Shown: positions 254 to 39,446 of the stretch, in pieces
Numbering within the stretch: position 1 is the stretch's first letter
Layout of the letters: each line of letters begins with the position of its first letter
DNA from: Candidatus Tenebribacter davisii
Lineage (GTDB): Bacteria > Cloacimonadota > Cloacimonadia > Cloacimonadales > TCS61
NCBI GenBank assembly: GCA_030765535.1
Contig: JAVCCH010000090.1
Location: 1 to 39,446, forward strand
Length of the DNA: 39,446 nucleotides
Direction: 5' to 3'
The notes under the pieces: model-generated
The model's database searches: none
What the model was told of the DNA's origin: nothing
What the model saw: the letters and a program-made list of their open reading frames with translations, nothing else
Translations under genes and position numbers: made by a program

Positions 254-844
254 ATGAAGAAAGTTAGCATGTTAGTTATTATTATTATTTTTTCTTTTAC
301 ATTTATTTTGAATGCACAGGAATCTGGAATGAAAAAAGTAGCCGAGTATCCTACAGCTTTTCAACCAGGTGAAAAAATTGTTCAAGCTGGTTTAGGTTTT
401 GGCATGGTGGGAGTATATGGTGATGTTGTCATTCCTCCAATTAGTGTGAGTGTTGATATCGTAAAAGAGATAGAAGGTTTTCCTATTTCATTTGGTGGAT
501 TGATAGGAATAGCAAAATCTGAATATGATTATGGTTGGTATACTGATGACTACACATGGTCTTATACATATATTGTGTTAGGTGGAAGAGCTGCTTATCA
601 TCTGAAATTGAATTCTCCAAAAATTGATCCTTATGGTGGAATAATGTTAGGTTATAACATTGTTTCCTTCAATGAACCATCAGGTTGGGAGAGTACTTAT
701 GGAAGTTATTCAGGAGGAGATAGTTATTTAATGTATGGTTTTTATGGTGGCGCAAGATATTTCTTTAATCCAAAAATGGCTGTATATGCTGAATTAGGTT
801 ATGGATTTGGGTATCTAAATCTAGGGATATCATATAAATTATAA
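254..844 (+). CDS. Small outer-membrane beta-barrel protein
   Basis: A 196-residue exported protein of unknown specific function. Residues 1-21 form a signal peptide (two Lys, a run of Ile/Phe/Leu, then NAQ), so the mature protein is probably periplasmic or outer-membrane. The rest alternates Gly/Tyr/Phe-rich strands (for example GGARYFFNPKMAVYAELGYG near the end), the pattern of a small OmpA/OmpW-like eight-strand barrel, and it ends in a strand with an aromatic residue (ISYKL). The start is supported by AGGAGG at 243-248. It is a single-gene unit between the 5S terminator and its own terminator. No enzyme motif is visible; structural porin and adhesin-like roles cannot be told apart. Confidence 0.75.
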   Translation: MKKVSMLVIIIIFSFTFILNAQESGMKKVAEYPTAFQPGEKIVQAGLGFGMVGVYGDVVIPPISVSVDIVKEIEGFPISFGGLIGIAKSEYDYGWYTDDYTWSYTYIVLGGRAAYHLKLNSPKIDPYGGIMLGYNIVSFNEPSGWESTYGSYSGGDSYLMYGFYGGARYFFNPKMAVYAELGYGFGYLNLGISYKL

Positions 845-864
845 TTTCATAAAGAGAAACTATT

Positions 865-897
865 GCCGGATCATAACATAGATCCGGCTTTTTATTT
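865..897 (+). terminator. Intrinsic terminator
   Basis: GCCGGATC (865-872) pairs perfectly with GATCCGGC (881-888) over an 8-nt loop and is followed by a T-rich tail. It ends the outer-membrane protein unit. Confidence 0.9.
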
Positions 898-989
898 AGT
901 ATAAAATTAGTAAGAATAAGTAAATCTAATAAATATTTTTCTAGAACACATTAGCTCCTTTTAATATTAACAAAAAAAGATTGCTTTAA

Positions 990-4350
<3,361 letters not shown>

Positions 4351-4354
<4 letters not shown>

Positions 4355-5439
4355 GATTATTAGATAGATACATCTTACGTGAATACATAAAAATATTTTT
4401 AATTATTCTGTTTTCTTTTTCTGTTTTATTTTTAGTTGTAGATATATCAGACAGGTTACCAAAATTGATCAGTAAAGGTGGTGAGATCAATTATATTGTT
4501 TTGTATTTTCTGCTCAGGATTCCTTATCTAATCTTAATCTCATCTCCAGTAATGGTTTTACTTTCTGGTCTTTTTCTCATGAATAACCTTTCAAAATATA
4601 ATGAATCTGTAGCAATTAGAAGTGCCGGGATCAGCATATATCGAATGGTATCTCCTCTTATCTGGTTTGGCTTGATCTTCAGTATTATTATTATGTTCAT
4701 GGGTGATCTTGCCTTACCTAAAGCAGAAGATTACAGAAATTACATTTATAAAGAAAAAATAAAGCACCAGAAAGTAGAAGATAAAAAGATGAGATCGAAT
4801 ATCCATTATCTAGGGAATGATAAAAATCTATATTATATTGGTTTTTTCGATGGATATAGAAATAATTTAAAAACTATTGATATAACTACTTTTCATCCTG
4901 ATTCTGGAGAAATATTGCGTAAAATTACTGCAACAAGAGCAGAGTGGAAAGAAGTTGAATGGGTATTTTACAATTGCTATATCAGGAATTTTGAAAATGG
5001 TATCCTTACTAATATGGAGCATTATGAAGAAAAGATAATTCAAGAAGTTGATGTAACTCCACTCGATTTTATTAAAAGTGCTAAAAAACCAATGGCAATG
5101 AATTTCTTTGAATTGAAAGAATATATAGAACGACTTAAGAAAGTAGGTGAGAAATTTTCAAAAGAGATGGTAGAACTAAATCTCAAAGTATCATTTCCTT
5201 TTTCAAACCTGATTATATTACTTTTTAGCGTTCCATTAGTTTCTACTTCTTCTCGGAGTAAAGGAAGGGGATTGATCTTTGGAATGGGACTTGTAGTTTG
5301 TTTCTTATATCTTTCGACCTTGAGAATAAGTCAAAGTTTAGGGCATAATGAAGTTTTATCACCAATGGTCGCTGCATGGCTACCAAACTTAATATTTGCA
5401 GCTATTGGTATTTATTTCGTTATCAAGGCTGAAGTATAA
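4351..5439 (+). CDS. lptG: LPS export permease, LptF/LptG family (second copy)
   Basis: Partner permease of the LptB2FG complex. 362 residues, standard family length, opening with LLDRYILREYIKIF. Membrane segments lie at about residues 12-32, 47-75, 98-120, and three at the C-terminus (about 278-360); the periplasmic jellyroll lies between. It overlaps the preceding permease by 4 bases, and its stop shares one base with the next start, so the two permeases and the glycan genes that follow are probably translated from one message. The ATPase LptB and the periplasmic LptA/C are not in the window. The LptF/LptG labels of the pair could be exchanged. Confidence 0.92.
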
Positions 5440-6614
5440 TGAAAATTCTAATGATCTTGGAAAATAATTTTCCACCTGATGTAAGAGTTGAAAAAGAGAT
5501 AAAATCTCTTATTACTGCTGGACATGAAATTACATTGGCTTGTTCATCACCAAGATCTGAAAATGGTGTAATGAACTGGCATAATGCTAAGATTATTAAA
5601 AAGAAGATGCCGGATTTCATTTACAAATCAAGTGTAATTTGTTTACGCTTTCCATTTTATTTCAATTATTGGAGAAAATTCTTAGAAACTATTCTAAATA
5701 AATATGAATTTAATGCAATTCATCTTCATGATCTTCCTCTTGCTAAAGTTGCTAAAGAACTTTCCATAAAACACAATATCCCATTCATACTTGATTTGCA
5801 TGAGAATAGACCTGAAATAATGAAACTTTATAAACACGTACTAACATTTCCAGGTAAAATATTAATATCACTTAAGCATTGGTTTGAATATCAAAAGAAA
5901 TTTACAAAATTAGCAGATAAAATAATTCTTATTACAAATGAAGCGAAAATTGATTACATTAGTAAATATGAAGTCGAACCTCATAAAATTATTGTAATTC
6001 CAAATTATGTCGATATAAATAATATTAAAACAATTTCTATAAATACTGATATTCAAAATAAATACAATAAAGTTTTCACTATTGTATATTTTGGTGATAC
6101 CGGTTTGCGAAGAGGAACAGCAACACTTATTGAAGCTGCAAATCAACTGAAGGGTTATTCTGATATACACTTTCTGATAATTGGTAAGAGTAGGGAAGAT
6201 GAAAGCTTAAGAAAAATGATTGGTAAACTAAATCTTTCAAATATAGAATTATTAGGTTGGATTCCGATAGATAAGGCAGTTTCATATATCAAAGCTTCTA
6301 AAATTGGTGTTTGCCCTTTTTTACGTAATAGACATCATGATACAACTTACGCAAATAAAATGTTCCAATACATGGCTTTTGGGAAACCAGTAATCGTAAG
6401 TGATTGTACTTCACAAAAAAATCTTATTGAGAAAGAAAAATGCGGATTAGTGTTTGAAGCAGAAAATGCAAAAGATCTAGCAAAAAAAATATTAACAATA
6501 CATCAGAATTCAAATTATGATGAGTTGTCTGCTAATTCATATAATGCTGTGATCAATAAATACAATTGGAAAAATTCTTCCGAGCAATTAATTACACTTT
6601 ATAAGGAATTATGA
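5439..6614 (+). CDS. GT4-type glycosyltransferase
   Basis: Predicted GT-B fold transferase (391 residues) that adds a sugar from a nucleotide donor to a lipid-linked or LPS acceptor on the cytoplasmic face. The N-terminal half has ENNFPPDVRVEKE, typical of GT4 acceptor domains, and HLHDLPLAK near residue 110. The C-terminal donor domain has VYFGDTGLRRGTATLIEA and KMFQYMAFGKPVIVSD. In many GT4 enzymes the last motif reads (E/K)xxEYMAxGKPVI; here Gln replaces the donor-binding Glu, a variant that occurs in FCB-group transferases. It starts inside the TAATGA junction with lptG. The sugar and acceptor cannot be read from sequence. It probably builds a surface glycan with the next three genes. Confidence 0.88.
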   Translation: MKILMILENNFPPDVRVEKEIKSLITAGHEITLACSSPRSENGVMNWHNAKIIKKKMPDFIYKSSVICLRFPFYFNYWRKFLETILNKYEFNAIHLHDLPLAKVAKELSIKHNIPFILDLHENRPEIMKLYKHVLTFPGKILISLKHWFEYQKKFTKLADKIILITNEAKIDYISKYEVEPHKIIVIPNYVDINNIKTISINTDIQNKYNKVFTIVYFGDTGLRRGTATLIEAANQLKGYSDIHFLIIGKSREDESLRKMIGKLNLSNIELLGWIPIDKAVSYIKASKIGVCPFLRNRHHDTTYANKMFQYMAFGKPVIVSDCTSQKNLIEKEKCGLVFEAENAKDLAKKILTIHQNSNYDELSANSYNAVINKYNWKNSSEQLITLYKEL

Positions 6615-7801
6615 TCAAAGATAAATATCACTTAAGGCAAATCGTAATGAATACGTTTACATTACTACTAAAAATTGCTTCACTAATAATACCAAAACAA
6701 AAAGGATTAATATTATTAGGGAGTTTTTCAGCTGAAAGATTTGGTGATAATTCTGCTACTCTTTATAAATATATCCTTAAGAATCATCCAGAAATTACTG
6801 CAATCTGGATGACAAATAATAATCAGGTTGAAGATGAAATTAATAAGCTAGGTGGTCCAGTTTTTAAACGTCGATCAGTTCATGGAATTTGGCTGTCTTT
6901 AAGAGCAGAAGTAGTTATTTCTTCACATGGAATAAAAGATGCAATAATGTTTGAACCATTTCATCATCGTCCTAAATTGGTTTATTTAGGGCATGGAATT
7001 CCATTAAAAAAGGGTTGGATTGAAATTAAAAATATTTCAAAAAGATTAAAAAAAGCTTCACTAAAAAAAATCAAATATTCTACTTTCATGATATCTTCTT
7101 CAGAATTTTCTGCACAATTGCAAAATAATTTCTTACCAATAGGAAGAAATAAAATAAAAATTACAGGTCTTCCAAGAAATGATATGCTATTTGAGATAGA
7201 AAAACATACGATAAAAGAAAATTATAATTTAAACAATTTCAAATTTGTGATCTTGTATACTCCAACTTTTCGAAATTGGGGATTTACCAGATTCTTCCCA
7301 TTTGAAGATTATGATATGAAGAAATTGAATAAATTTTGTGAGTTAAACAAGGTTTGTTTCATCCTTAGACCTCATCACAGTGATTTGAAAAACATCGATA
7401 CTAATTTCTGGAAAGAGATTGAAAGGACTTCAAATTTCATATTAATAACACATGAGAGATGTTCAAACGTAAATGAATTATTAGTAGCATCAGATTGCTT
7501 GATCACAGATTATTCGTCTATATATTTTGATTATCTTCTGCTAGATCGTTCGCTTATATTTTTACCATATGATTTGAAAAAATATTCAAGTGAACATGGT
7601 TTTAATATTGATTATGATATGGTTACACCAGGTTATAAGCCAAAAACGCAGAATGAGCTATTGGAAAATATAGAACAGATTATTTATGGAAAGGATGAAT
7701 TTATTAGTTTACGAAATGAATTAAAAAATAAGATTCATAAATATCAAGATGCGAATTCATGCTTAAGATTAGTAAAAGAAATTAAAGGTTTGATGTTATG
7801 A
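6611..7801 (+). CDS. CDP-glycerol/ribitol glycerophosphotransferase family protein
   Basis: Member of the TagB/TagF-like family (Pfam Glyphos_transf) that moves a polyol-phosphate from a CDP donor onto a glycan. The 396 residues show the family landmarks in order: GLILLGSFSAERFGDNS (about 33-50), VVISSHGIKDA, YLGHGIPLKKGW (about 131-142, putative catalytic His), LYTPTFRNWG (about 216-225), RPHHSD (about 254-259) and DCLITDYSSIYFDYL (about 299-313). There is no signal peptide; the basic N-terminus suggests membrane association on the cytoplasmic side. Four-base overlaps tie it to both neighbours. In a diderm this implies glycerol- or ribitol-phosphate decoration of a surface polysaccharide rather than wall teichoic acid; the actual donor is unknown. 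Confidence 0.9.
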   Translation: MIKDKYHLRQIVMNTFTLLLKIASLIIPKQKGLILLGSFSAERFGDNSATLYKYILKNHPEITAIWMTNNNQVEDEINKLGGPVFKRRSVHGIWLSLRAEVVISSHGIKDAIMFEPFHHRPKLVYLGHGIPLKKGWIEIKNISKRLKKASLKKIKYSTFMISSSEFSAQLQNNFLPIGRNKIKITGLPRNDMLFEIEKHTIKENYNLNNFKFVILYTPTFRNWGFTRFFPFEDYDMKKLNKFCELNKVCFILRPHHSDLKNIDTNFWKEIERTSNFILITHERCSNVNELLVASDCLITDYSSIYFDYLLLDRSLIFLPYDLKKYSSEHGFNIDYDMVTPGYKPKTQNELLENIEQIIYGKDEFISLRNELKNKIHKYQDANSCLRLVKEIKGLML

Positions 7802-8526
7802 AAAAATTGAGAATTTCAATCATCGGAAATTCTGTAGCCATTCGTAATCGTCCTCCACAGAAATCCCCTGATAATAAAAACTATGGATTATTACTAGAAG
7901 AATTTCTTCAAAACCAGCATCCCGACCAGATTGTTATGGTTAACAATATGGGATTTAGTAGGGCAACAATTATAAATGTTATTCAGAATTATGATGAATA
8001 TATAGCTTCAATGCCAGATTATTTCATTATCAATATTGGAGTTAGTGATGCTACTACAAGGGAAATACCTTACTGGTTTGCTGAGATTCTAAATAATCCG
8101 AAGCAAAGTTGGTACAAACCGCTTTTCTCTGCTTTTCACCATTATTGCATCAAACCGCACAGGAGTTGTTTTGTAAAATTACGCGGTAAGCAAAGTTGGA
8201 TTACAAAGAAAAGATTTAGAAAATATTACAAGGAGTTAATTCTCTTATTGCAAAAGGAAACTAATGCTAGAATAATAGTTATCCCAATAAATTTAGCAAA
8301 TGATCGTATAGAAAGGATTGTGCCAGGTAGTAAGGAAAACTATAATCAGTATAATAGGATAATAAAATCAATTGCGAATGAATCTGATTGCATATATTTG
8401 AAACTTGATGAACTAAATTCTAAAGAACATTATCCAGATGGAATTCACTATTCATTAGAAGGGAATAAACTAGTTGCAAAAAAATTGTTTGATTTATTAG
8501 AAAGGGATTATAATTATGCTGAATAA
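7798..8526 (+). CDS. SGNH/GDSL-fold hydrolase-like protein
   Basis: 242-residue protein with the block pattern of SGNH esterases/acyltransferases: ISIIGNSVA at residues 7-15 (block I, with GNS in place of GDS, keeping the Ser), NNMGFSRATI (block II Gly region, about 41-50), INIGVSDAT (block III, where GxND becomes GVSD, about 80-88) and DGIHYSLEGN (block V, Asp-x-x-His, about 216-225). There is no signal peptide, so it would act in the cytoplasm. Sitting between the phosphotransferase and the flippase with overlaps on both sides (4 and 11 bases), it probably adds or removes an ester group such as acetate on the glycan intermediate. Loss of the block III Asn makes full activity uncertain. Confidence 0.75.
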   Translation: MKKLRISIIGNSVAIRNRPPQKSPDNKNYGLLLEEFLQNQHPDQIVMVNNMGFSRATIINVIQNYDEYIASMPDYFIINIGVSDATTREIPYWFAEILNNPKQSWYKPLFSAFHHYCIKPHRSCFVKLRGKQSWITKKRFRKYYKELILLLQKETNARIIVIPINLANDRIERIVPGSKENYNQYNRIIKSIANESDCIYLKLDELNSKEHYPDGIHYSLEGNKLVAKKLFDLLERDYNYAE

Positions 8527-9973
8527 ACTTAAAAATACAGCAAAACATACTTTTATTTACAGTATTGGAAACCTATCAACTAAGATTATTGGATTGTTGT
8601 TATTACCTCTTTACACAGCAAAATTAACCCTCCTAGATTACGGTAGATTCACAATTTTAGAAACAACTTCAATGTTCCTGACAATGGTATTGGGATTACG
8701 CATTGTTTCATCCATGATGAGGTGGAGTGCAGAAACAGAAGATAAAATAGAACAAGGCAAAATTCTCTTTAATACATATATTGTCCTGATCTTTACAGCA
8801 ATAATAATAAATATTGTTTTTTCACCTTTAAAGGATTGGTTATCTCAAGTATTTTTTTCAAGTATGGAATTCTCACATTTCTTTACCGTAATATTTGCCA
8901 TTATTGGTTTTGAGATGATCAACCAAGTACCAATGAATCTATTTCGTTTTAGAGAAAAATCGGTTATATATTCCGTTATTTTTGCTGCTAAATTATCTGT
9001 AGTTCTTATATTAAATATTTATTTTTTAGTTTATGCCGAAACAGGTGTGATCGGGATATTTTACAGCCAGTTAATAGCCAGCATATTGCAGATGCTTTGT
9101 ACACTTCCTATATTATTAAAGAATTTCAATTATAAATTTGATCTTATTCTGATAAAAGAGATGCTTGGTTACAGCATTCCCCTAATCTTCAGTGCAATTT
9201 CTGTCCAATTACTGGCGATTGGAGATCGCTATATTATAAAATACTTATTGGATTACTCTCAGGTGGGGATTTACTCCTTAGGATATAAAATATCAGGTGT
9301 ACTTAATGTATTTGTTATTCAAGCATTTGCACTTGGATTCTTACCAATAGCATATAAGATGCAAAACTCACCTGATGCAGCAGTATTCTTTAAAAAGATA
9401 TTCAAATATTTCTCTATGATCTTAGTTTTTGGAGCTTTAGCATTATCATTATTTTCACGTGAGATCCTGCTTATTTTTGCTCGTAAACCGGAATTCTATA
9501 TTGCCTATAAAATTGTTCCTCTAATTACACTGGCTTTTATCTTTAAGGGTATTCAGTATATGTTTTTACTTGGTTTCCATTACGTTAAAAAAACTAAGTA
9601 TATTGCATACATTGTTACTTTTGCATTATTTGTGAATATTGGCTTAAATTTTGTGCTGATTCCAAGACTCGGTATATGGGGAGCGGCATTAACAACTGTA
9701 ATTTCCTCCTTGTTGATCTCAGTTATTTCCTATTATGTTTCACAAAAATTTTATCCTGTTAAATATGAAATTGGTAAAATGAGCCTTGTCCTTTTTGTTG
9801 GTATTGGATTATTCTTAATATCTGGATTATTTTTTGATATTAATATATATATTGGGATTGGGATTAAATTATTACTATGTATAGCATTTCCGATATTATT
9901 ATACGTATTTAAATTCTATGAAAAGACCGAATTGGATAAAATGAAAAAAGTACTGTATAAATTTAGAAAATAA
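8516..9973 (+). CDS. Polysaccharide flippase, Wzx/MOP superfamily
   Basis: 485-residue integral membrane protein with 12-14 predicted helices, of the oligosaccharidyl-lipid flippase (PST/Wzx) branch of the MOP superfamily. Landmarks: an N-terminal amphipathic start KNTAKHTFIYSIGNLSTKII, LPLYTAKLTLLDYGRFTI in the first loop, YSIPLIFSAIS and GDRYIIKYLLDYSQVGIYSL in the middle helices, and RLGIWGAALTTVIS near residues 390-403. It would move undecaprenyl-linked glycan units across the inner membrane. Start ATG at 8516 lies inside the previous gene (11-base overlap). It is the last gene of the run beginning at ligA; the 35-base gap to the convergent neighbour holds no obvious hairpin. No Wzy polymerase or WaaL ligase is visible here. 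Confidence 0.9.
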   Translation: MLNKLKNTAKHTFIYSIGNLSTKIIGLLLLPLYTAKLTLLDYGRFTILETTSMFLTMVLGLRIVSSMMRWSAETEDKIEQGKILFNTYIVLIFTAIIINIVFSPLKDWLSQVFFSSMEFSHFFTVIFAIIGFEMINQVPMNLFRFREKSVIYSVIFAAKLSVVLILNIYFLVYAETGVIGIFYSQLIASILQMLCTLPILLKNFNYKFDLILIKEMLGYSIPLIFSAISVQLLAIGDRYIIKYLLDYSQVGIYSLGYKISGVLNVFVIQAFALGFLPIAYKMQNSPDAAVFFKKIFKYFSMILVFGALALSLFSREILLIFARKPEFYIAYKIVPLITLAFIFKGIQYMFLLGFHYVKKTKYIAYIVTFALFVNIGLNFVLIPRLGIWGAALTTVISSLLISVISYYVSQKFYPVKYEIGKMSLVLFVGIGLFLISGLFFDINIYIGIGIKLLLCIAFPILLYVFKFYEKTELDKMKKVLYKFRK

Positions 9974-10008
9974 ACAAAACTTCAAACCTTACAAAAAGGA
10001 GTAAAAAT

Positions 10009-11730
10009 TTATTTTAATAATAACATCTTCTTCGTATAAGTTTTGTTTCCAGATATAAGTTTGTACAAATATATTCCTGAAGAAACAGACTTTCCTGAAC
10101 TGTCTAATCCATTCCAAGTAACTGAATATTGATCATTTGAAACTGAATATTGTTTTATTAATTGTCCTTTTAAATTATAAATAGAAAGATCTGCATTTTC
10201 AGTGCTGTTAGTGTTTAAATTGAAAGAAATTGTTGTAGAAGGATTAAAAGGATTTGGATAATTGGACAACGAAGTGATAGATAGTACTGGATTTTCATTC
10301 TCGATATAATTGCCCGTCAATTCAATATCTTCATCATCACGAGGTTCAAGTTTAAATGCACCGAAAGTATAATCAACAATTCCAGTTAGGTTATAAATAA
10401 ATTCTCCCAGTTCAGGTTGATAAGTGTAATCTCCAAGTCCACCGATCATACACGTACCGGATATATCTTCGACTTCCCAGTTTCCATTTCCAAGGTTATC
10501 ATTAGAAATAGTTACATCCTGGAGTCTGGCTAGAACACTTTCATAATCTTCGGTTGTAGATAATTCAGCAGCACTTAGAACAACAGATTCAGGAACTTCC
10601 AATGTTCCTAAGATCGTTATGTTAATTATATCTGTGATCTCTGTTTTATCATTGTACTCCAGAACAGATCCAGAAATTGTGATCTCATCACCAACTTCAA
10701 CTTCCTGATTTGGATAAATAGCAATACCATTCCAGGCGCCGGGTCCATCCTGAATAAAGAAATAGTTTTCAAATTTTGCTGTTACAATACCGGAAGTCTC
10801 AACCAGTTCTCCTTCATGTGGAGAAGGACCAGTCAATGAATACTGAATATCATATATTGTGTAAGGAGTAACCGGAATTGGCTCAATAATGGAGAAGGCA
10901 GCATTACTATCATCCCATGGATCTCCATCTTCAGTGTCTGATATAATAATTGCATACCAATCATTGATAAATTGATCAACTGGAATGTTCCATTCCCAAC
11001 TACCGTCATCTTCGGTAGAAGCAACCAGCACTTCTCTATCACGATAAACTGATTCAAGTTCGATCTTTATGTTTCCTGTAAAATTTATAGATATCCAGGT
11101 GATTGGATGTGTAGAGCCCTGTTCCCATTGTTCTCCGCCATTTGGGCTGGCTACAATTAATGTTGGTTCTGGAGTTCCCCCAATAGTCTGACCGTTATTC
11201 AAAGCTCCTGGAGTTTCGGATGCAGGATCCTGCCAAGTGAAATCACTATAAACAGCTCCTGTTCCTAATAGTTGTAGTGATTCTCCAACTTGAGTACCAC
11301 CATCTTCGATAACACAAATATCAGTTGATGTTACACCAACTGCCGGACCTTCCCCTGCTTCAAAAGTACCCTCATAACTAAGGAACTGTCCTGGAATAAG
11401 CGTACCTTGGTAGTCAATAGCAATACCATCTGGAGCTCCATTTTGAATGCCATTTGCTGGATATTCATAATAATAAAGTGTATAGTTTTCACTTGTAATT
11501 CCGGTAGTAAACATGTCTAAGGTTTTCACATCGTAAGTAGTGCAATAGCTCCCATTATAGAGAGTAATAGTAAAATCACTTAGAGTATAACTTCCGGTAT
11601 TTTCTAACACTATCTCAACAAATTCACCTTCATCAGTACTTGCATTATCATAATGTAATTCATTAAGCCAAATATTTTGAGCAGAGAGAAGTGTTCCCAT
11701 AAAAAATATAACAATAAATAATTTTCTCAT
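10009..11730 (-). CDS. Secreted T9SS cargo with lamin-tail and OB-fold domains
   Basis: 573-residue exported protein. Signal peptide 1-17, cleaved near SAQ. Residues about 18-180 form a lamin-tail-like domain (NIWLNELHYDNASTDEGEFV, SYTLSDFTITLYNG, SETPGALNNG). About 190-285 match Kre9/KNH-type Ser-Thr-rich surface modules (PNGGEQWEQGSTHPITW). About 290-400 resemble the OB fold found beside secreted nucleases (FFIQDGPGAWNGIAIYP, VGDEITISGSVLEYN). The last about 85 residues are a T9SS sorting tail (NYPNPFNPSTTISF, SSGIYLYKL, ending KKMLLLK). No nuclease catalytic domain is present although the OB and lamin-tail modules often accompany one, so it may be a binding or structural surface protein. 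RBS AAGGAG lies before the start; 18 bases separate it from the upstream co-directional DUF6765-like gene. Confidence 0.85.
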   Translation of the reverse strand: MRKLFIVIFFMGTLLSAQNIWLNELHYDNASTDEGEFVEIVLENTGSYTLSDFTITLYNGSYCTTYDVKTLDMFTTGITSENYTLYYYEYPANGIQNGAPDGIAIDYQGTLIPGQFLSYEGTFEAGEGPAVGVTSTDICVIEDGGTQVGESLQLLGTGAVYSDFTWQDPASETPGALNNGQTIGGTPEPTLIVASPNGGEQWEQGSTHPITWISINFTGNIKIELESVYRDREVLVASTEDDGSWEWNIPVDQFINDWYAIIISDTEDGDPWDDSNAAFSIIEPIPVTPYTIYDIQYSLTGPSPHEGELVETSGIVTAKFENYFFIQDGPGAWNGIAIYPNQEVEVGDEITISGSVLEYNDKTEITDIINITILGTLEVPESVVLSAAELSTTEDYESVLARLQDVTISNDNLGNGNWEVEDISGTCMIGGLGDYTYQPELGEFIYNLTGIVDYTFGAFKLEPRDDEDIELTGNYIENENPVLSITSLSNYPNPFNPSTTISFNLNTNSTENADLSIYNLKGQLIKQYSVSNDQYSVTWNGLDSSGKSVSSGIYLYKLISGNKTYTKKMLLLK

Positions 11731-31353: not shown

Positions 31354-33303
31354 ATGAGAAAGTTATTATTAGTTTTTTTAACAATTCTGATCGCATCAAT
31401 GCTTATTGCTGCTCCAGCAGTCAATAGGGCTACATTAAGTGAGATCAGAGACAACAGAGAATTTGATTGGGCAGATCAAAATTCAGGTTTTCCAAATGCT
31501 TCAACAGGCATCAACTCCATGATTGCTGTAGATACAAACATTGTATGGGCAGCAGGTTATGATGGAAGCGGTAGTACTATACCGTATCAAATAGTTACAC
31601 ATACTACTGATGGTGGTACTAACTGGACTGCTACACAGATCGACACAGCTCCAACAGATGGTGATGTTGCCATGATCATGGCAATTGATGCGAACAAAGC
31701 ATGGGTTCCAATTCACACAGGAACACCTCAAGGGATCTATTATACGGAAGATGGTGGTGCGAACTGGGTACACCAGGAATCTGCAACTTTTAATTATGTT
31801 AATCCTCAAAGTCAACTTGTGTCTTTTCCAAATGTGGTTCATTTTTTCAATGAAAACGATGGTTTTGCACAAGGTGATCCGGTGGAGGGATATTTTGAAT
31901 TGTATACAACTAATAATGGTGGAACAATTTGGACTAGGGTAGCAGAAGCTAATATTCCTGCTCCATTAACTGAAGAATGGGGAATAGTTGGATATTATGA
32001 TGCTGTTGGAGATAATATCTGGTTTGGTACTCAAAAAGGTCGTGTTTTTTATTCAAATGATAAAGGATTAACTTGGGGAGTTGCGCAAACACCACTTGGT
32101 ACAAACGATATGTATACAGATGTTACATTTAAAGATGCATTGCATGGACTTGCCCAGGATAAGAGTGCATCTTCTACTGGAACTGTTTGTGAAACAAGTA
32201 ATGGTGGTGTAACATGGCAGGCTGTAACTCATACAGGAACATGTTATACAAATGATATGGATTATGTCCCGGGAACTGAAAATACTTATGTATCTACAGG
32301 TGCTGCTACTGGAATCTCCGGTGCATCCTTTAGTTATGATGGTGGACACAACTGGATCACATTTGATGAAACTGATGCAGTGCAGTTCCTTGCTACTTCT
32401 TGGATCAATGTAACAACTGGATGGGCAGGATGTTTCAATGATCAGAATAATCCTGGCCTGTTTGGTGTTTATGCTTATACCGGTGACCTAACTCCGCAGC
32501 CGATGGGAACAATTAGTGGCGTTGTATCTGATCTGGATACAGGTACTTTATTAGTTAATGCTATAATTACTTTAGGAACAAATACAACAACGACAGATTT
32601 TGATGGTGAATTTGAAATGCTGGTTGATGTTGGTACTTTCGATTTTACGTGTGAATTACTGGGGTTTGATACTTACAGTGAAGATGATGTAGTGATTGAA
32701 GAAAATCAAATTACATCAATTGATATAGCTTTGCAAAATCAATATGTTCCTCCTACAAACCTTAGCTGTTCTGTTACAGGAGAAAATGTTTTTATCGAAT
32801 GGTCAGCTCCGGAAACAGAAGCAGATGTTACTAATTATAATATCTACCGTAATGCAGAAATTCTTTATACTGTAAGTGGCTCAACAACAGTGACAATAGA
32901 TGAGGGAGTTTCATCAGGAACATATACATATAACATTAGTGCAATATATTATGATGTTTATGAATCTGAACTTACAGATGATTTTGTAGTAGAAGTAGTG
33001 GATGCTGGTAATATCTTACCAGTAAATGGAACAAAACTTATTGGAAATATTCCTAATCCATTCAATCCTACAACTGCTATCAGTTTCTCACTTGATAAAG
33101 CAGGATTTGTAAATATTGATATCTATAACGTTAAAGGTGAAAAAGTACGTACTTTAGTAAATGAGAACTTGGAAGCTTCTACACATAACGTTATTTGGGA
33201 TGGAGAAGACGATCAGGGAAAAACAATTTCAAGTGGTATTTACTTCTATAAGATGAGAACAGGATCATTTACTGCAACTAAAAAAATGATTTTGATGAAA
33301 TAA
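31354..33303 (+). CDS. Secreted T9SS cargo with BNR/YCF48-like propeller
   Basis: 649-residue exported protein. Signal peptide 1-20 (ends IAA). Residues about 30-380 hold at least six BNR/sortilin-type Asp-box repeats (TTDGGTNW, TEDGGANW, TTNNGGTIW, SNDKGLTW, TSNGGVTW, SYDGGHNW), implying a beta propeller like those of YCF48-type or secreted glycan-binding proteins. About 387-462 form a carboxypeptidase-regulatory-like module (GTISGVVSDLDTGTLLVNAI), then an FnIII-like stretch (about 468-550), and finally a T9SS/FlgD-Ig-like tail (NIPNPFNPTTAISFSL, VIWDGED, SSGIYFYKM, ending KKMILMK). Probably displayed on the cell surface or released. No catalytic triad seen. Convergent with a related cargo gene. 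Confidence 0.87.
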   Translation: MRKLLLVFLTILIASMLIAAPAVNRATLSEIRDNREFDWADQNSGFPNASTGINSMIAVDTNIVWAAGYDGSGSTIPYQIVTHTTDGGTNWTATQIDTAPTDGDVAMIMAIDANKAWVPIHTGTPQGIYYTEDGGANWVHQESATFNYVNPQSQLVSFPNVVHFFNENDGFAQGDPVEGYFELYTTNNGGTIWTRVAEANIPAPLTEEWGIVGYYDAVGDNIWFGTQKGRVFYSNDKGLTWGVAQTPLGTNDMYTDVTFKDALHGLAQDKSASSTGTVCETSNGGVTWQAVTHTGTCYTNDMDYVPGTENTYVSTGAATGISGASFSYDGGHNWITFDETDAVQFLATSWINVTTGWAGCFNDQNNPGLFGVYAYTGDLTPQPMGTISGVVSDLDTGTLLVNAIITLGTNTTTTDFDGEFEMLVDVGTFDFTCELLGFDTYSEDDVVIEENQITSIDIALQNQYVPPTNLSCSVTGENVFIEWSAPETEADVTNYNIYRNAEILYTVSGSTTVTIDEGVSSGTYTYNISAIYYDVYESELTDDFVVEVVDAGNILPVNGTKLIGNIPNPFNPTTAISFSLDKAGFVNIDIYNVKGEKVRTLVNENLEASTHNVIWDGEDDQGKTISSGIYFYKMRTGSFTATKKMILMK

Positions 33304-33362
33304 TCAGAAAATTCTTCGGAATGTTCTTTTGACCTTCCGAATGGTTTCACACTTAAGCATAA

Positions 33363-33392
33363 TAAAAGCCCTGACAGAAGTCAGGGCTTTTA
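33363..33392. terminator. Bidirectional terminator between convergent T9SS cargo genes
   Basis: TAAAAGCCCTGAC (33363-33375) pairs perfectly with GTCAGGGCTTTTA (33380-33392) over AGAA. A/T-rich arm ends serve both directions. A weaker 7-bp hairpin (TTCGGAA 33315-33321 with TTCCGAA 33335-33341) precedes it just after the + strand stop. Confidence 0.93.
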
Positions 33393-33417
33393 TCTATCTC
33401 AAAAGCTGAGCTTTAAG

Positions 33418-35376
33418 TTACTTCATCAAAATCATTTTTCTGGAAGATGAGTAGCTTCCAGATCTCATTTTGTATAAATATACTCCGCTCGAAACAGGTT
33501 TGTTAGAAATATCTGTTCCATCCCAAATCACTGAATATTCACCAGTTTCTTTGTTCTCATTAACAAGCATTTTTATCAACTGTCCTTTAAGATTATATAC
33601 TTGAATTGTAACATTACTGATTTCCTTAATTGTATAAAAGATATTTGTAACCGGATTGAATGGATTTGGATAGTTACTTCCCAGTTCATTATGTGCAATA
33701 ATAACATCTTCAGTGCTAACAATTGGTTCTAAAATAAAATCAACTCCTGAAATTATATTGCCGGACGTTACGACAATAGGTGGTGTGGTTTGAGGTGTAT
33801 AATCTTCCAAACTAGCTGTTACATCGTAAGTACCTGGTGCAAGTGTAATGATATAATCTCCATTTGTATCCGGATTTACAATCACTCCACCTGTTTCTAC
33901 TTCAACCTCTGTGACAATACCACTTCCACCGTTTAAAGTTACATTTCCTTCGATCGTACCGTTCAAAATCGAAGCTCCCAATGTTCCATCCAAGTTAATA
34001 TTTTGTGCATAAATGTCTTTCCCACCATTTCTGCTATCTTCCCAGGATGCAACGAACATACCATTTGAGAGTTGGCTTACAACATTATGTACTTTTTCAG
34101 ATTCTACAGAACACATTGTGATCTGCTCTTCTGTCCAGGCATAATTTCCATCCTGATCAATCTTTGCAGCAACTACGTGAGCATCAACAGCATTCGTATA
34201 ATCTTCCAGAAACAACATTAAATCTTCGTTTGCTTTTCTAAGCCCTACCATCTGGATATAGTCAGAAGAGATACTTATAAGATTGTTGCCATTATCACCC
34301 CAAAGTAAATTTCCTGTAACATCAACTTTTTGTCCGGTAATACCATGGTTATTCTGATTGCCATCGGTTTGTCCCCAGTAGGTTATCAGTTCATTTGTAT
34401 CTTCATAATAAACCGATTCCGGATAAAAACTCTGTCGATCCATTTCGGTGGTTAGCTGAACACCATTTGCAGTAAAGGCAACTGTACCATCCGCATTTAC
34501 ATGTTGAGCAAAAGGATATGAGATCGTACCACCACCCCGACTATCGTGCCAGGAAATAAAACATCCATTGTTTCCATCAGTGATTATATTGAAAACCTGT
34601 GTCCATGCTGTTATTCCACCTGCATTGGAAACGACAGTATCGTTTGCCCAAACTGCATCCCCATCATTATCAAATTTCTGTATGTAACAATAACGAGTTG
34701 GTGCCCAGGCAGGACCAGAATCATGGAAAAACTTTAATAAAATGTGGTCATTCTCTACTGCAAAAGGTTGCGGCCAGGAATACCTATCAGCGCAACTCAA
34801 TGTAATACCGTTCGGTCCCCAAACTAATGTTCCATTTCCAGCGATTCTCTGCATGATGATCGCATCATCTGACTGCCAGGTGATAACTGCAACTCCATCT
34901 GATGTTACACAAACTTTTGGTGCTACATCAAAGGCAGTAGAATTTGAAAGTTCAATCCCATCATTTCCCCAAATGAACGTACCATCAGACAAAATTTTAT
35001 AAACGTAAATATTGTTATTCCCACCATTGCGGATGTCCTGAAAAACCAAGATCGCATGGTTATCATCATCGACGGTCATATCCCAATCCGTAAGCCAGGT
35101 CATGGCGGTATTATCACTTACAAGAATCCCATTATGTTCCCACAATTCATTGCCTTGAGAATCTAACCTTTGTAGTCGTACATCGTAATTACCGGAGTCG
35201 TTGGAAAAATATCCAATGTAAGTATCACCAGTAATACTTGTAACAACCTTTGGAATTGCCTGTTCACCGCTCAGATCACAGATTGCATTGTTAGTTGCCG
35301 GATTTTCACTCCACTGAGCATAAATAAGGGTTGAAAAACATAAAATTAAAAATAGTATAAATAATTGTCTCTTCAT
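33418..35376 (-). CDS. Secreted T9SS cargo with repeated propeller-like N-terminus
   Basis: 652 residues from the ATG at 35376, chosen because GGAGGT lies just before it and the signal peptide MKRQLFILFLILCFSTLIYA starts there; an upstream in-frame ATG at 35400 would add eight residues before the signal peptide. Residues about 20-470 contain repeats built around W-G-x-(D/N)-G-(I/N)-x-L (such as FIWGNDGIELSNST, LVWGPNGITLSC, LLWGDNGNNLIS) with SWxDxRxGG and FQDIRNGG turns, a propeller-like surface domain. About 478-560 is a carboxypeptidase-regulatory-like module (GTIEGNVTLNGGSG), and the last 85 residues a T9SS tail (NYPNPFNPVTNIFYTI, VIWDGTD, SSGVYLYKM, ending RKMILMK). The tail closely resembles that of the convergent 31354 gene. 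No enzyme motif. Confidence 0.87.
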   Translation of the reverse strand: MKRQLFILFLILCFSTLIYAQWSENPATNNAICDLSGEQAIPKVVTSITGDTYIGYFSNDSGNYDVRLQRLDSQGNELWEHNGILVSDNTAMTWLTDWDMTVDDDNHAILVFQDIRNGGNNNIYVYKILSDGTFIWGNDGIELSNSTAFDVAPKVCVTSDGVAVITWQSDDAIIMQRIAGNGTLVWGPNGITLSCADRYSWPQPFAVENDHILLKFFHDSGPAWAPTRYCYIQKFDNDGDAVWANDTVVSNAGGITAWTQVFNIITDGNNGCFISWHDSRGGGTISYPFAQHVNADGTVAFTANGVQLTTEMDRQSFYPESVYYEDTNELITYWGQTDGNQNNHGITGQKVDVTGNLLWGDNGNNLISISSDYIQMVGLRKANEDLMLFLEDYTNAVDAHVVAAKIDQDGNYAWTEEQITMCSVESEKVHNVVSQLSNGMFVASWEDSRNGGKDIYAQNINLDGTLGASILNGTIEGNVTLNGGSGIVTEVEVETGGVIVNPDTNGDYIITLAPGTYDVTASLEDYTPQTTPPIVVTSGNIISGVDFILEPIVSTEDVIIAHNELGSNYPNPFNPVTNIFYTIKEISNVTIQVYNLKGQLIKMLVNENKETGEYSVIWDGTDISNKPVSSGVYLYKMRSGSYSSSRKMILMK

Positions 35377-35415
35377 ATTACCTCCAATAGGCCATTGCAT
35401 TTACAACTCGAAGTA

Positions 35416-35438: not shown

Positions 35439-35451
35439 TATGAAATAATAA

Positions 35452-35479
35452 TGGTCGGGATGAGAAGATTTGAACTTCT
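35452..35479 (-). other. tRNA 3'-end remnant (tRNA-Pro-like), probable attachment site
   Basis: On the minus strand these 28 bases read as a T stem-loop (AGAAG, loop TTCAAAT, CTTCT), a 7-nt acceptor strand CATCCCG, discriminator A and CCA. All parts of a tRNA 3' end are in register, but no matching 5' CGGGATG, D arm or anticodon arm follows upstream, so it is a fragment, not a gene. CATCCCGACCA is the usual 3' end of bacterial tRNA-Pro (5' partner CGGGATG). Located 227 bases from a tyrosine integrase, it is best explained as the displaced tRNA end left at the chromosomal side of an integrated element. Weaker resemblance to an anticodon-stem strand (TCAAG) just upstream is not relied on. Confidence 0.8.
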
Positions 35480-35618: not shown

Positions 35619-35683
35619 TTCACAACAATGTTGTGATTATTTCACAACAATTCAATACATTTCACAACAATTTTCACAACAAT
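35619..35683 (+). repeat. Four direct repeats TTCACAACAAT before the integrase
   Basis: Exact copies of the 11-mer at 35619-35629, 35641-35651, 35661-35671 and 35673-35683 (start-to-start 22, 20 and 12). A reversed half-site makes a palindrome CACAACA-A-TGTTGTG at 35621-35635. The array ends 23 bases before the integrase ATG. Likely roles: arm-type binding sites for the integrase, or an operator controlling its expression. The rest of the 330-base gap 35377-35706 holds the tRNA remnant, a TTGACA at 35487-35492 and the RBS AAGGAG (35695-35700). Confidence 0.85.
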
Positions 35684-35706
35684 TTTACGTGTAGAAGGAG
35701 ATAATT

Positions 35707-36801
35707 ATGTATGAAAAATTATTAAAAGAAATCAGGAAATTCAACCAGAAAAGTATTTTCAAGATTAAGTATAGGAAGTTAAAAGAGAAGTACACATTAT
35801 TCTTAGAATTACAAAGAGACGGAAACAGAAAGACCATTAATATTGAAAACTGCTTTGTTAAAGGTTTAACATCATCGTATATTAATGATAAGAGGATGGT
35901 TCATAAGGCATCACAAGAACAACAAGTATACGATAAGCAGTATGAATTTAAAAAGGATACATTCTTAAGAGATATTAAAATAAAAAGTAGTAACGTGGTT
36001 ACATTCTTTGAATCTATAAAAGAATCTAAAAAAAGTAAAGCTACAAGAAGATCTTGGAACAATACCATTAATTACTTCAAAGAATTTACTAAAGGGAAAT
36101 TAACTTTTAAAGAAATTAATCTTGAATTCAGTGAAAAGTTTAGAAGATATTTATTAACTCAAGTCTCAGAGAATTCAACAGCAACCTATTTCTCAGTGTT
36201 TAAAGCAATGCTCAATCATGCAGTAAAGCATAATATTCTTGTAAAAAATCCAGCAAAGTTTGTTTTGAATCCAAAGAAAAGAGTTGAGAGGGAGTTCTTG
36301 CTGCTTGATGAGATAAAATTATTAGCATCAACAGATAGTTATCGTCCTCAAACTACTAACGCATTTTTATTTAGTTGTTTCACTGGTTTAAGGATATCAG
36401 ATATTAGAAATTTAACATGGAGCAATATCACTAAGGATTCATTAGAATATACTCAGCAGAAAACAGGGATTTCTCAAAAAATGAAAATTAATGAAAGTGC
36501 ACTCGGAATATTGAAAGAGCAAAAAGCGAGTACAAAAGGTAAAAGAGTTTTTGAAGTCCCAAGATCAGATTCCAATAGCAATAAGCATTTAAAGAAATGG
36601 GTAAATCGAGCTGGTATAAAGAAACATATAACCTTTCATTGCAGCAGGCACACGTTTGCTACGTTATGTTTAACTTATGATGTAGATTTGTATACTGTAA
36701 GTAAGTTACTTGGACATACAGACATTAAGAACACTCAAATATATGCTAAATTGATTGATAAGAAGAAAGACCAAGCAATAGATAAATTACCTGTATTATA
36801 A
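35707..36801 (+). CDS. Tyrosine recombinase / integrase (Bacteroidetes type)
   Basis: 364-residue site-specific recombinase. Three-part layout: an N-terminal arm-DNA-binding domain of the Arm-DNA-bind_5 kind (about 15-55; IFKIKYRKLKEKYTLFLELQ then RDGNRK), a SAM-like core-binding domain (about 95-185), and the catalytic domain (about 195-355). The active-site set is complete: Arg229 in TGLRISD, Lys252 in TQQKTG, His311 and Arg314 in HCSRHTFATL, His337 in LLGHTDI and nucleophile Tyr346 in TQIYAKL. It reads away from the tRNA remnant, with a strong RBS. It probably integrates the element into a tRNA-Pro gene. No excisionase (small winged-helix) gene is visible next to it. Confidence 0.95.
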   Translation: MYEKLLKEIRKFNQKSIFKIKYRKLKEKYTLFLELQRDGNRKTINIENCFVKGLTSSYINDKRMVHKASQEQQVYDKQYEFKKDTFLRDIKIKSSNVVTFFESIKESKKSKATRRSWNNTINYFKEFTKGKLTFKEINLEFSEKFRRYLLTQVSENSTATYFSVFKAMLNHAVKHNILVKNPAKFVLNPKKRVEREFLLLDEIKLLASTDSYRPQTTNAFLFSCFTGLRISDIRNLTWSNITKDSLEYTQQKTGISQKMKINESALGILKEQKASTKGKRVFEVPRSDSNSNKHLKKWVNRAGIKKHITFHCSRHTFATLCLTYDVDLYTVSKLLGHTDIKNTQIYAKLIDKKKDQAIDKLPVL

Positions 36802-36989: not shown

Positions 36990-38726
36990 TTAAACAATAT
37001 TCATTATCTCAAGGGTTTGACTAATGTATTTATCTAAACTATTATCATACTTCTTTAATAATGATCGCTTAGCTTTACATTCTCCTATTTCAATAAGTTT
37101 AGCTTTATCTTGAAAGTACTTTCTATTAAAATCTAAAATTAGACTTTTATTTTTTTCAATTACAGCAATTGAAATAAAAGTTTGAGTGTCAATTGGCAAA
37201 AAATTACTTACAAACTTTATTATAATGTCTTTACTAACTTGTTCTAAATCCTCTTTAAAAATGGCATCTAATATGAATGGTAATCTATGAATATCTTCAT
37301 TCTGATTGATTAGATAGTTAAATGCAAAGTGATAAGCTAAAACAGTTTTATGTAGCTCAACACCTTGAGATGGAAATGCAGATATCATGTATAACTCTCG
37401 ATACCTTCTTTCATTTAATGGCTTCACTTTTAACTCTCTAAGATACCTACTAAATATTCTCTCAAATATTTTAGAATAATTATTTCTATCTTTTGTAATA
37501 TCTTCAAAGCTCTTAAAGTCCTCTAATTCCTCACTAAGTTTATTTTTTTCTTTTGTTAAATTGCCTAATTTGTGAGTGATCTGTTCAACTAATTCAATAT
37601 TAGTTTTATCCTTTAGCCAATTATCATAAGTAATTTCTGACTCAGAATGTCTTTTTAGTATATTAAATTCTTGTTTTATTATTTCTGAATTTTTTTCAAG
37701 TGATTTAGATAATGAATTAACTTCAGATTGCTTCTGTTTGATTTTTAATGAACACAATTTTGTTTCTTCAATAATGTCATATGATTCTTGTATGTACTTA
37801 TATGATGATTCAATATTATATGGAAGACTTTGAGTACATACAGGGCAAAAATCGTTTGCAGGATTTTGTCCCTTATGATTTTGAGAAACTTTTCTAAGAA
37901 CTGAAAGACGTTGCTTGTAATATGTCAATTCATTACATTTATTAACATACTCTTTTTCTTGTTGCTTATATTCTGATATTCTTTCTTTATGGGATTCAAT
38001 ATATTCTTTTGTATGTTCAATGTATTTTTCATCAGCCAACTTTGATATCTCAAGCTCTTCATTATTTTTTTCGATTCTGGAATAAAAGTCAATTTGCTCC
38101 TCTTTCGATTTAATCTGATTCTCCAACTTTTTTTTCATTATTCTGTCGGATGAATTCTCAATACCCAAATAATAATCTAAGTAGTCATTTTTAAAATTAC
38201 GATAATAATCCAAACAACTGAAAGATTTTCTCAAATATACCCAGCCAACTGATTGTGAAACATAATAGGGTAGAAAAAGAGTTTCTATTGGTGCTGGTTT
38301 ATATTCATCTTGACTTTCCAAAAGCAAAGAACATTCGAATAAATTATGTATAAACTCTTTTAGCTTTATATGCTCAACTGAAGAATTTCCATTTATACCA
38401 CTAAATCTCTCAGTTGGTTTGTTCTTACGATGAATATACAAGGTATCATCGTCTCTAATAAAGCTTATCTTTTCAACACTTGATCTCATTGATGGAATAA
38501 ATTCACAATCAAGCCTGAATATCAATTGCTCGTCTAAAATCTCTTTTAGCTTTAAATTATTTTCGTTAATCCCAAATGTATATAGAATCGTTTGAAATAG
38601 AGTACTTTTGCCTGAAGTATTAAGACCAAAAACAATATTCATTTTATCGCCAAACTTGAAACAAAAATACTTGTTTGATATCGAGGAATAAGCCATAAAG
38701 CTTTTTAAAATCAGTGTTTTTTTCAT
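36990..38726 (-). CDS. SMC/Rad50-like ATPase with zinc-hook CPVC
   Basis: 578 residues. Walker A GLNTSGKS at 34-41, following the short MNIVFG strand as in RecF/Rad50/SMC proteins. A Q-loop-like LPYYVSQSVGW lies at 152-162. A long charged coiled-coil (about 195-285) leads to CPVC at 294-297, a zinc-hook-type turn, and a return coil (about 310-415). The C-terminal lobe has a degenerate ABC signature PSQGVELHKTVLAYHFAF (452-469) and Walker B PFILDAIF (483-490), where Ala stands in the place of the usual catalytic Glu. The coil is much shorter than in true Rad50 (SbcC), and no nuclease partner is adjacent. It starts three bases after the stop of the upstream gene. It resembles ATPases of mobile defence operons (Lamassu or ABC three-component type), but family membership is inference. 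Confidence 0.85.
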   Translation of the reverse strand: MKKTLILKSFMAYSSISNKYFCFKFGDKMNIVFGLNTSGKSTLFQTILYTFGINENNLKLKEILDEQLIFRLDCEFIPSMRSSVEKISFIRDDDTLYIHRKNKPTERFSGINGNSSVEHIKLKEFIHNLFECSLLLESQDEYKPAPIETLFLPYYVSQSVGWVYLRKSFSCLDYYRNFKNDYLDYYLGIENSSDRIMKKKLENQIKSKEEQIDFYSRIEKNNEELEISKLADEKYIEHTKEYIESHKERISEYKQQEKEYVNKCNELTYYKQRLSVLRKVSQNHKGQNPANDFCPVCTQSLPYNIESSYKYIQESYDIIEETKLCSLKIKQKQSEVNSLSKSLEKNSEIIKQEFNILKRHSESEITYDNWLKDKTNIELVEQITHKLGNLTKEKNKLSEELEDFKSFEDITKDRNNYSKIFERIFSRYLRELKVKPLNERRYRELYMISAFPSQGVELHKTVLAYHFAFNYLINQNEDIHRLPFILDAIFKEDLEQVSKDIIIKFVSNFLPIDTQTFISIAVIEKNKSLILDFNRKYFQDKAKLIEIGECKAKRSLLKKYDNSLDKYISQTLEIMNIV

Positions 38727-38729
38727 AAT

Positions 38730-39446
38730 TTAGTTCTCAATCATAATAAAGGCTGCACAAATTGCAGCTTTAAGTTCTATCGGTTTCAATTGCGTTCTAT
38801 TATTTTTGTTAAATTCTTCATATAATTTCTCTATACACTCAGTTTCTGTAAAAGTAGTTGTTAATATACCTGTGTTTTTTCTTACAAATAATAGAATTTT
38901 TTGATGTTCCGCTTGTAACAAATCTTTAAAAAGATCAAAACTATTTACAAAATTGAATTCGAATATTGTTCTTTCTGCAATTGGTATTTCTAATTTTATA
39001 GATAATTCATTCTTTTTTGATCTCCACAGCTCGAAACCAAGTTGTTGTTTTGTAATAATGTCAATAGCTTCGGTTATTTGTACACTACTTACACGTTTAG
39101 CTGCATCTAATAGGTTAGCTCTATTCCCCTTGTTTAATTCATTCTCAACATCTCTAAATAACATAATAAGTGTATCAACTGCAGCTTTATGTTTGCTCAC
39201 TTTATCCCCAAAGATATCACCAAATTGCCCTACTAAAGTATTTTTTTGTTTTATGCTTGTTCTTGGTAAATCTATATATGCTAAAGATAAGTTTTGAAGT
39301 TCATCAATTGATTTGCTATTCTCAGAAAGCAATTTTTGAACCTCTACTTTAATTTTCAATTGTAATGAATTTTTCAGATTGACATATTTCACAACTTGGT
39401 TACTTTCATTAATAGTAACTTTACTCTTACAAGCTTTTGTAGATAA
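38730..39446 (-). CDS. Unrecognised partner of the SMC-like ATPase, 5' end outside window
   Basis: At least 238 codons. A GTG at 39392 could start a 220-residue protein, but the frame is open to the window edge (upstream residues read LSTKACKSKVTINESNQV) and there is no good RBS at the GTG, so the true start lies outside. The protein is mostly alpha-helical with Lys/Glu-rich stretches; a mid-region segment (about LSIKLEIPIAERTIFEFNFV) looks like beta strands, and it ends in a hydrophobic helix (AAICAAFIMIEN). No signal peptide, no nuclease, protease or TM motif that I can recognise. It precedes the ATPase gene by three bases, so the two are translationally coupled and probably form a complex. 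Confidence 0.75.
   Translation of the reverse strand, partial: LSTKACKSKVTINESNQVVKYVNLKNSLQLKIKVEVQKLLSENSKSIDELQNLSLAYIDLPRTSIKQKNTLVGQFGDIFGDKVSKHKAAVDTLIMLFRDVENELNKGNRANLLDAAKRVSSVQITEAIDIITKQQLGFELWRSKKNELSIKLEIPIAERTIFEFNFVNSFDLFKDLLQAEHQKILLFVRKNTGILTTTFTETECIEKLYEEFNKNNRTQLKPIELKAAICAAFIMIEN

Follow-up and report, generated by a model that had tools for sequence, protein, structure and literature searches.

The window analysed here is a stretch of 39,446 nucleotides from Candidatus Tenebribacter davisii (Cloacimonadota). It comprises the whole of contig C210, in an assembly of 3.0 Mb and 218 contigs, and its right edge is therefore an edge of the assembly. Two genes lie against this edge on the minus strand: an open frame at 38730-39446, which represents the C-terminal 238 residues of lmuA, and, after a gap of 3 bases, lmuB at 36990-38726, which encodes an SMC/Rad50-like ABC ATPase of 578 aa with a CxxC hook. 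The lmuA frame stays open up to the window edge. A 220-aa "gene" that would start at the GTG at 39392 was rejected as an artefact; this GTG is no gene start because the frame continues beyond the contig edge. The next gene behind lmuB is convergent and encodes a tyrosine integrase of 364 aa (35707-36801, plus strand; Phage_integrase, E=3e-22; Phage_int_SAM_5, E=5e-20).

The integrase belongs to an integrative element of about 15.4 kb that is bordered by a perfect 29-bp direct repeat. One copy, AATGGTCGGGATGAGAAGATTTGAACTTC, marks the left end of the element at 35450-35478 (plus strand), while the other lies at 11465-11493 of contig C136 and forms the 3′ end of an intact tRNA-Pro(CGG). The integrase is located at one end of the element with the lmuA-lmuB pair behind it, and the occurrence of the repeat on both contigs provides independent support for joining C210 to C136. 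In two genomes of the same genus (G096 and G098), the element is absent and a single contig holds both flanks, with about 220-270 bp between them; at these empty sites a copy of the repeat region is kept that is tRNA-Pro-like. The GC content is 0.28-0.29 within the element versus 0.33-0.35 outside, and the integrase family is present in 22 of 123 genomes of the phylum. Just upstream of the integrase, at 35620-35690, TTTCACAACAAT is repeated several times, and a further copy lies close to the second attachment repeat (C136, locus L004, 11386-11400). These repeats are possibly arm sites of the integrase or an excisionase.

Other cargo of the element is carried on C136 (L004). At 4981-7258 (plus strand) lies a cluster of CsgG, a small lipoprotein, DUF4810 and a GNA1162-like protein (PF03783, PF16068, PF05643), apparently an envelope-related, non-defence cargo. 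The far end of the element encodes a 447-aa protein (9790-11133, minus strand) with no Pfam or NCBIfam match. A distant relative (L047, 5218-6420; 27% over 162 aa) immediately follows a related integrase in a different genome of the genus, and the 447-aa protein may therefore be a conserved mobility gene of the element family. The segments at 816-4392 and 8295-9711 contain genes of unrecognised families (75, 227, 237 and 467 aa) along with small genes, one of which encodes an HTH_17 excisionase-like protein (9427-9711). Genes in the host flanks (window 31354-35400; L004 11688-15296) code for large secreted proteins whose C-terminal tails are of type IX style (FlgD_ig/Por_Secre in L004), a C25 gingipain-like peptidase among them. 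The DNA coding for these tails is present in many further copies in genomes of the genus.

The partner of the ATPase is a single gene split over two contigs. Its window part matches LmuA (PADLOC PDLC00244; E=3e-68) at profile positions 145-362 of 366. When the whole genome was scanned with this model, the window part covered positions 131-363 and the N-terminal part turned up at C136:7-384 (profile 1-128, E=6e-49). This second piece comprises 128 residues and continues the frame on C136:1-384 (minus strand). The window ends in the same 24 bases with which C136 begins, and both copies read LSTKACKS in the same frame, which gives by arithmetic a full length of 128+238-8 = 358 residues; LmuA of the relatives described below measures 364, 370, 371, 371 and 397 aa. 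Both pieces, which were analysed separately and unfused, match a single 364-aa Paenibacillus gene directly upstream of lmuB. An undetected error at the C210/C136 junction is possible despite the exact, in-frame overlap.

The piece on C136 contains the Cap4 dsDNA endonuclease domain (PF14130), scoring over the curated cut-off. Residues E46, D50, Q69 and K71 are invariant in an alignment of four members, and D50, Q69 and K71 in eight LmuA proteins, distant ones among them (L017 numbering), as expected of a putative PD-(D/E)xK nuclease. The C-terminal part is not recognised by Pfam, NCBIfam or PHROGs, and Pfam holds no model for it; for this reason the partner had looked unfamiliar in an earlier, sequence-only reading of the locus, which assigned it to no recognised family. 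The PADLOC match supplies that family. The LmuA profile also matches the LmuA chain of the structure 9ux7 weakly (E=0.002).

The contig break that interrupts lmuA, together with the part of the element cargo that has no recognisable function, might suggest that an old island carries a Lamassu remnant which has decayed and lost its function. However, both frames are open, the motifs and nuclease residues are conserved and the contig ends overlap exactly and in frame, while the integrase also has an open frame and the two copies of the 29-bp repeat match perfectly. Decay is accordingly a very improbable account of the locus.

With its SMC-like ATPase joined to a small helical protein where the contig ends, the locus could also point to a three-component system of the ABC-3C or type II Lamassu kind; the 220-aa protein would then be the middle component, and the effector would be encoded separately past the edge. 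The sequence-only reading had favoured this arrangement as part of an undescribed two- or three-gene system. Its expectation of an effector beyond the right edge held in that a nuclease domain is encoded on C136, but this domain belongs to the same gene as the partner and not to a third one. The presumed middle component is itself LmuA positions 131-363, with the nuclease part following directly on C136, and in five relatives a single gene of 364-397 aa spans both parts. Middle-component models went unmatched in the profile searches. A three-component system can hence be given hardly any credence.

The relatives of the pair lead to the same gene content. A tblastn search found an LmuB with 49% identity on a Paenibacillus plasmid, and five further LmuB proteins were found on IMG/VR contigs (L011, L012, L016, L017 and L021). 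The latter were retrieved with hand-made patterns and an improved alignment; automatic patterns gave none among genome and viral contigs. Loci L013-L015, which matched the LDAIFKED pattern, were discarded as they do not code for LmuB. lmuA lies immediately before lmuB in all four IMG/VR loci that extend far enough, and with the Paenibacillus plasmid the two-gene arrangement holds in 5/5 relatives with enough flank. The same PADLOC models score best in all relatives. Inspection of their ORF lists revealed no recurring third gene, whether between the two genes or on either side of them.

The identity of the ATPase is clear from profile and structural comparisons. PDLC00250 (LmuB) matches it over residues 1-577 with E=1.5e-215, and LmuB models are at the top of its 19 PADLOC matches; weak matches to SMC_N/AAA_23 and Rad50 were also found. 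Profile searches gave no HerA match to the ATPase, which speaks against a HerA-DUF4297 system. In the predicted structure (pLDDT 79, pTM 0.63), long helices at 192-285 and 305-401 lie on either side of the hook. The best Foldseek match of this model is 9ux7_A, from a cryo-EM LmuAB-DNA complex (E=5e-15, TM 0.50), followed by other SMC and Rad50 heads and type II LmuB. Among sequence searches, the broad LmuB profile found 9ux7, the subgroup LmuB profile missed it, and single-sequence phmmer missed the PDB Lamassu entries. Structure prediction of both proteins, named in the sequence-only reading as a check, was thus informative for LmuB; the C-terminal LmuA part yielded a low-confidence fold (pLDDT 63) and no significant structural match, with Lamassu LmuA chains appearing at E>2 only and not counted.

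LmuB carries a Walker A motif at residues 34-41 (GLNTSGKS, extending to GLNTSGKST at 34-42; 38604-38627, minus strand), and GxNTSGKS is invariant in all members aligned. The zinc-hook-type CxxC is CPVC at residues 294-297 (37836-37847, minus strand), with CPxC invariant in five and six aligned subgroup members. Residues 454-460 stand where the ABC signature region lies and read QGVELHK (37347-37367, minus strand), a sequence invariant in the subgroup. The Walker B motif, LDAIF at residues 486-490 (37257-37271, minus strand), is without the usual catalytic Glu after the Asp and corresponds to LDA[IV][FL]KED in the subgroup. The alignment shows Walker A GxNTSGKS, CPxC, QGVELHKT, LDA-I/V-F/L-KED and DTQ as conserved throughout the subgroup. 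Walker A, the CPVC hook, LDAIF and the short coiled coils agree with the earlier description of the ATPase, as do the 3-base gap to its helical partner and the neighbouring integrase at 35707-36801 (plus strand). The proposal that a mobile island here carries a Lamassu-like defence ATPase of the SMC/Rad50 type was also borne out, by the PADLOC assignment to LmuB and the 29-bp repeat borders.

A core genomic context, or assignment to a housekeeping repair complex, would have spoken against that proposal, and the pair proved to be sporadic (LmuB is found in 1/125 genomes of the phylum) and mobile. A role in housekeeping repair, as an ATPase of the Rad50/SbcC type joined by an accessory subunit, would suit the zinc-hook-type CxxC and the weak SMC_N/AAA_23 and Rad50 matches, but its probability is negligible given a partner that is a Cap4 nuclease, no Mre11/SbcD partner gene, an Ala after the Asp in LDAIF in place of the Walker B Glu, and a sporadic distribution (1/125) on a mobile element.

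The pair is almost certainly a two-gene (type I) Lamassu abortive-infection system, encoded as an lmuA-lmuB operon on the element of about 15.4 kb in tRNA-Pro. It combines an LmuB ATPase with an LmuA made up of an N-terminal Cap4/DUF4297 effector domain and a C-terminal docking part, and lmuA lies directly upstream of lmuB with no third component. The middle component LmuC/DdmB is absent both between the genes, where 3 bases separate the lmuA stop from the lmuB start, and behind the pair. The two genes, their family, their intact motifs, the operon order, the conservation of the pair and the borders of the island are established at this locus. Rather than an undescribed system, both genes represent by PADLOC a known and complete one, type I Lamassu (PDLC00244/PDLC00250), to which they correspond in full-length matches, gene order, tight coupling and lack of LmuC; the sole difference found is the new host lineage. 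The originally identified Lamassu system was also a two-gene type I system (review, PMC10586767).

Among the closest known systems is LPB68_RS21695/RS21700 on the Paenibacillus crassostreae plasmid pPC03, another two-gene operon on a mobile replicon, with 49% identity in LmuB and 40-46% in LmuA. The pPC03 genes overlap, reside on a plasmid and are annotated as hypothetical only, whereas here the genes are separated by 3 bases within a tRNA island. Type I Lamassu systems from Klebsiella, Vibrio and Roseomonas plasmids, together with 9ux7, share the LmuA(DUF4297)-LmuB order, the SMC-like fold and a Walker B without Glu. At the Walker B and signature places they carry VIDSPKQQD and TGSRxPR-like sequences, in contrast to LDAIFKED and QGVELHK here, and the LmuB identity between the subgroup and the other type I systems examined is about 20%. 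Some other type I LmuB proteins are also without the CxxC hook that is present here. Lamassu type II, DdmABC and ABC-3C systems have the SMC-like sensor and LmuA effector in common with this pair, and Vibrio DdmA has a Cap4 nuclease (PMC12409362); however, they need the middle component LmuC/DdmB, absent here.

By its family, the pair probably serves in antiphage defence. In characterised Lamassu, LmuB senses DNA ends or hairpins (PMC12904381), and LmuA, once liberated, assembles into a homotetramer, by which the Cap4 nuclease is activated (PMC12409362, addendum). Transferred to this locus, hook-dimerised LmuB would bind DNA ends or hairpins arising in phage or plasmid replication, having until then kept bound LmuA inactive. 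Upon sensing, LmuA would be freed to form a tetramer, its Cap4 domain would cut DNA indiscriminately, and the cell would be killed or arrested before the invader spreads. Mechanistic work has mostly addressed three-gene type II systems, and the present subgroup is a distant relation even of the other type I systems compared.

In hydrolysing ABC ATPases, a Glu follows the Walker B Asp. This Glu is absent from both forms of LmuB, the LDA-I/V-F/L-KED subgroup and the other type I proteins, which have VIDSPKQQD or VVDAPNQQG at the Walker B place and a TGSRxPR-like sequence at the signature place; the altered Walker B is therefore a family trait of LmuB. Loss of the Glu suggests very slow ATP hydrolysis, so that ATP binding would probably act as a one-way switch. 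Vibrio LmuB reportedly has a Glu to Gln change, and low hydrolysis is expected there (review, PMC10586767). In the subgroup the Walker B Glu is replaced, as is the signature motif with its usual Ser, but Walker A and the hook are strictly kept. It is conceivable, if rather unlikely, that this LDA-I/V-F/L-KED/QGVELHK subgroup is a hydrolysis-dead, single-use sensor with gating unlike that of characterised Lamassu ATPases.

For the field, the divergent yet strictly conserved ATPase motifs of the subgroup are only a mildly useful point, and the locus illustrates how a contig break can disguise a known effector as an unfamiliar partner. This example adds a well-bounded integrative element in tRNA-Pro with a probable defence pair beside its integrase, and extends two-gene Lamassu, a known kind of defence system, to a new host and one more lineage.
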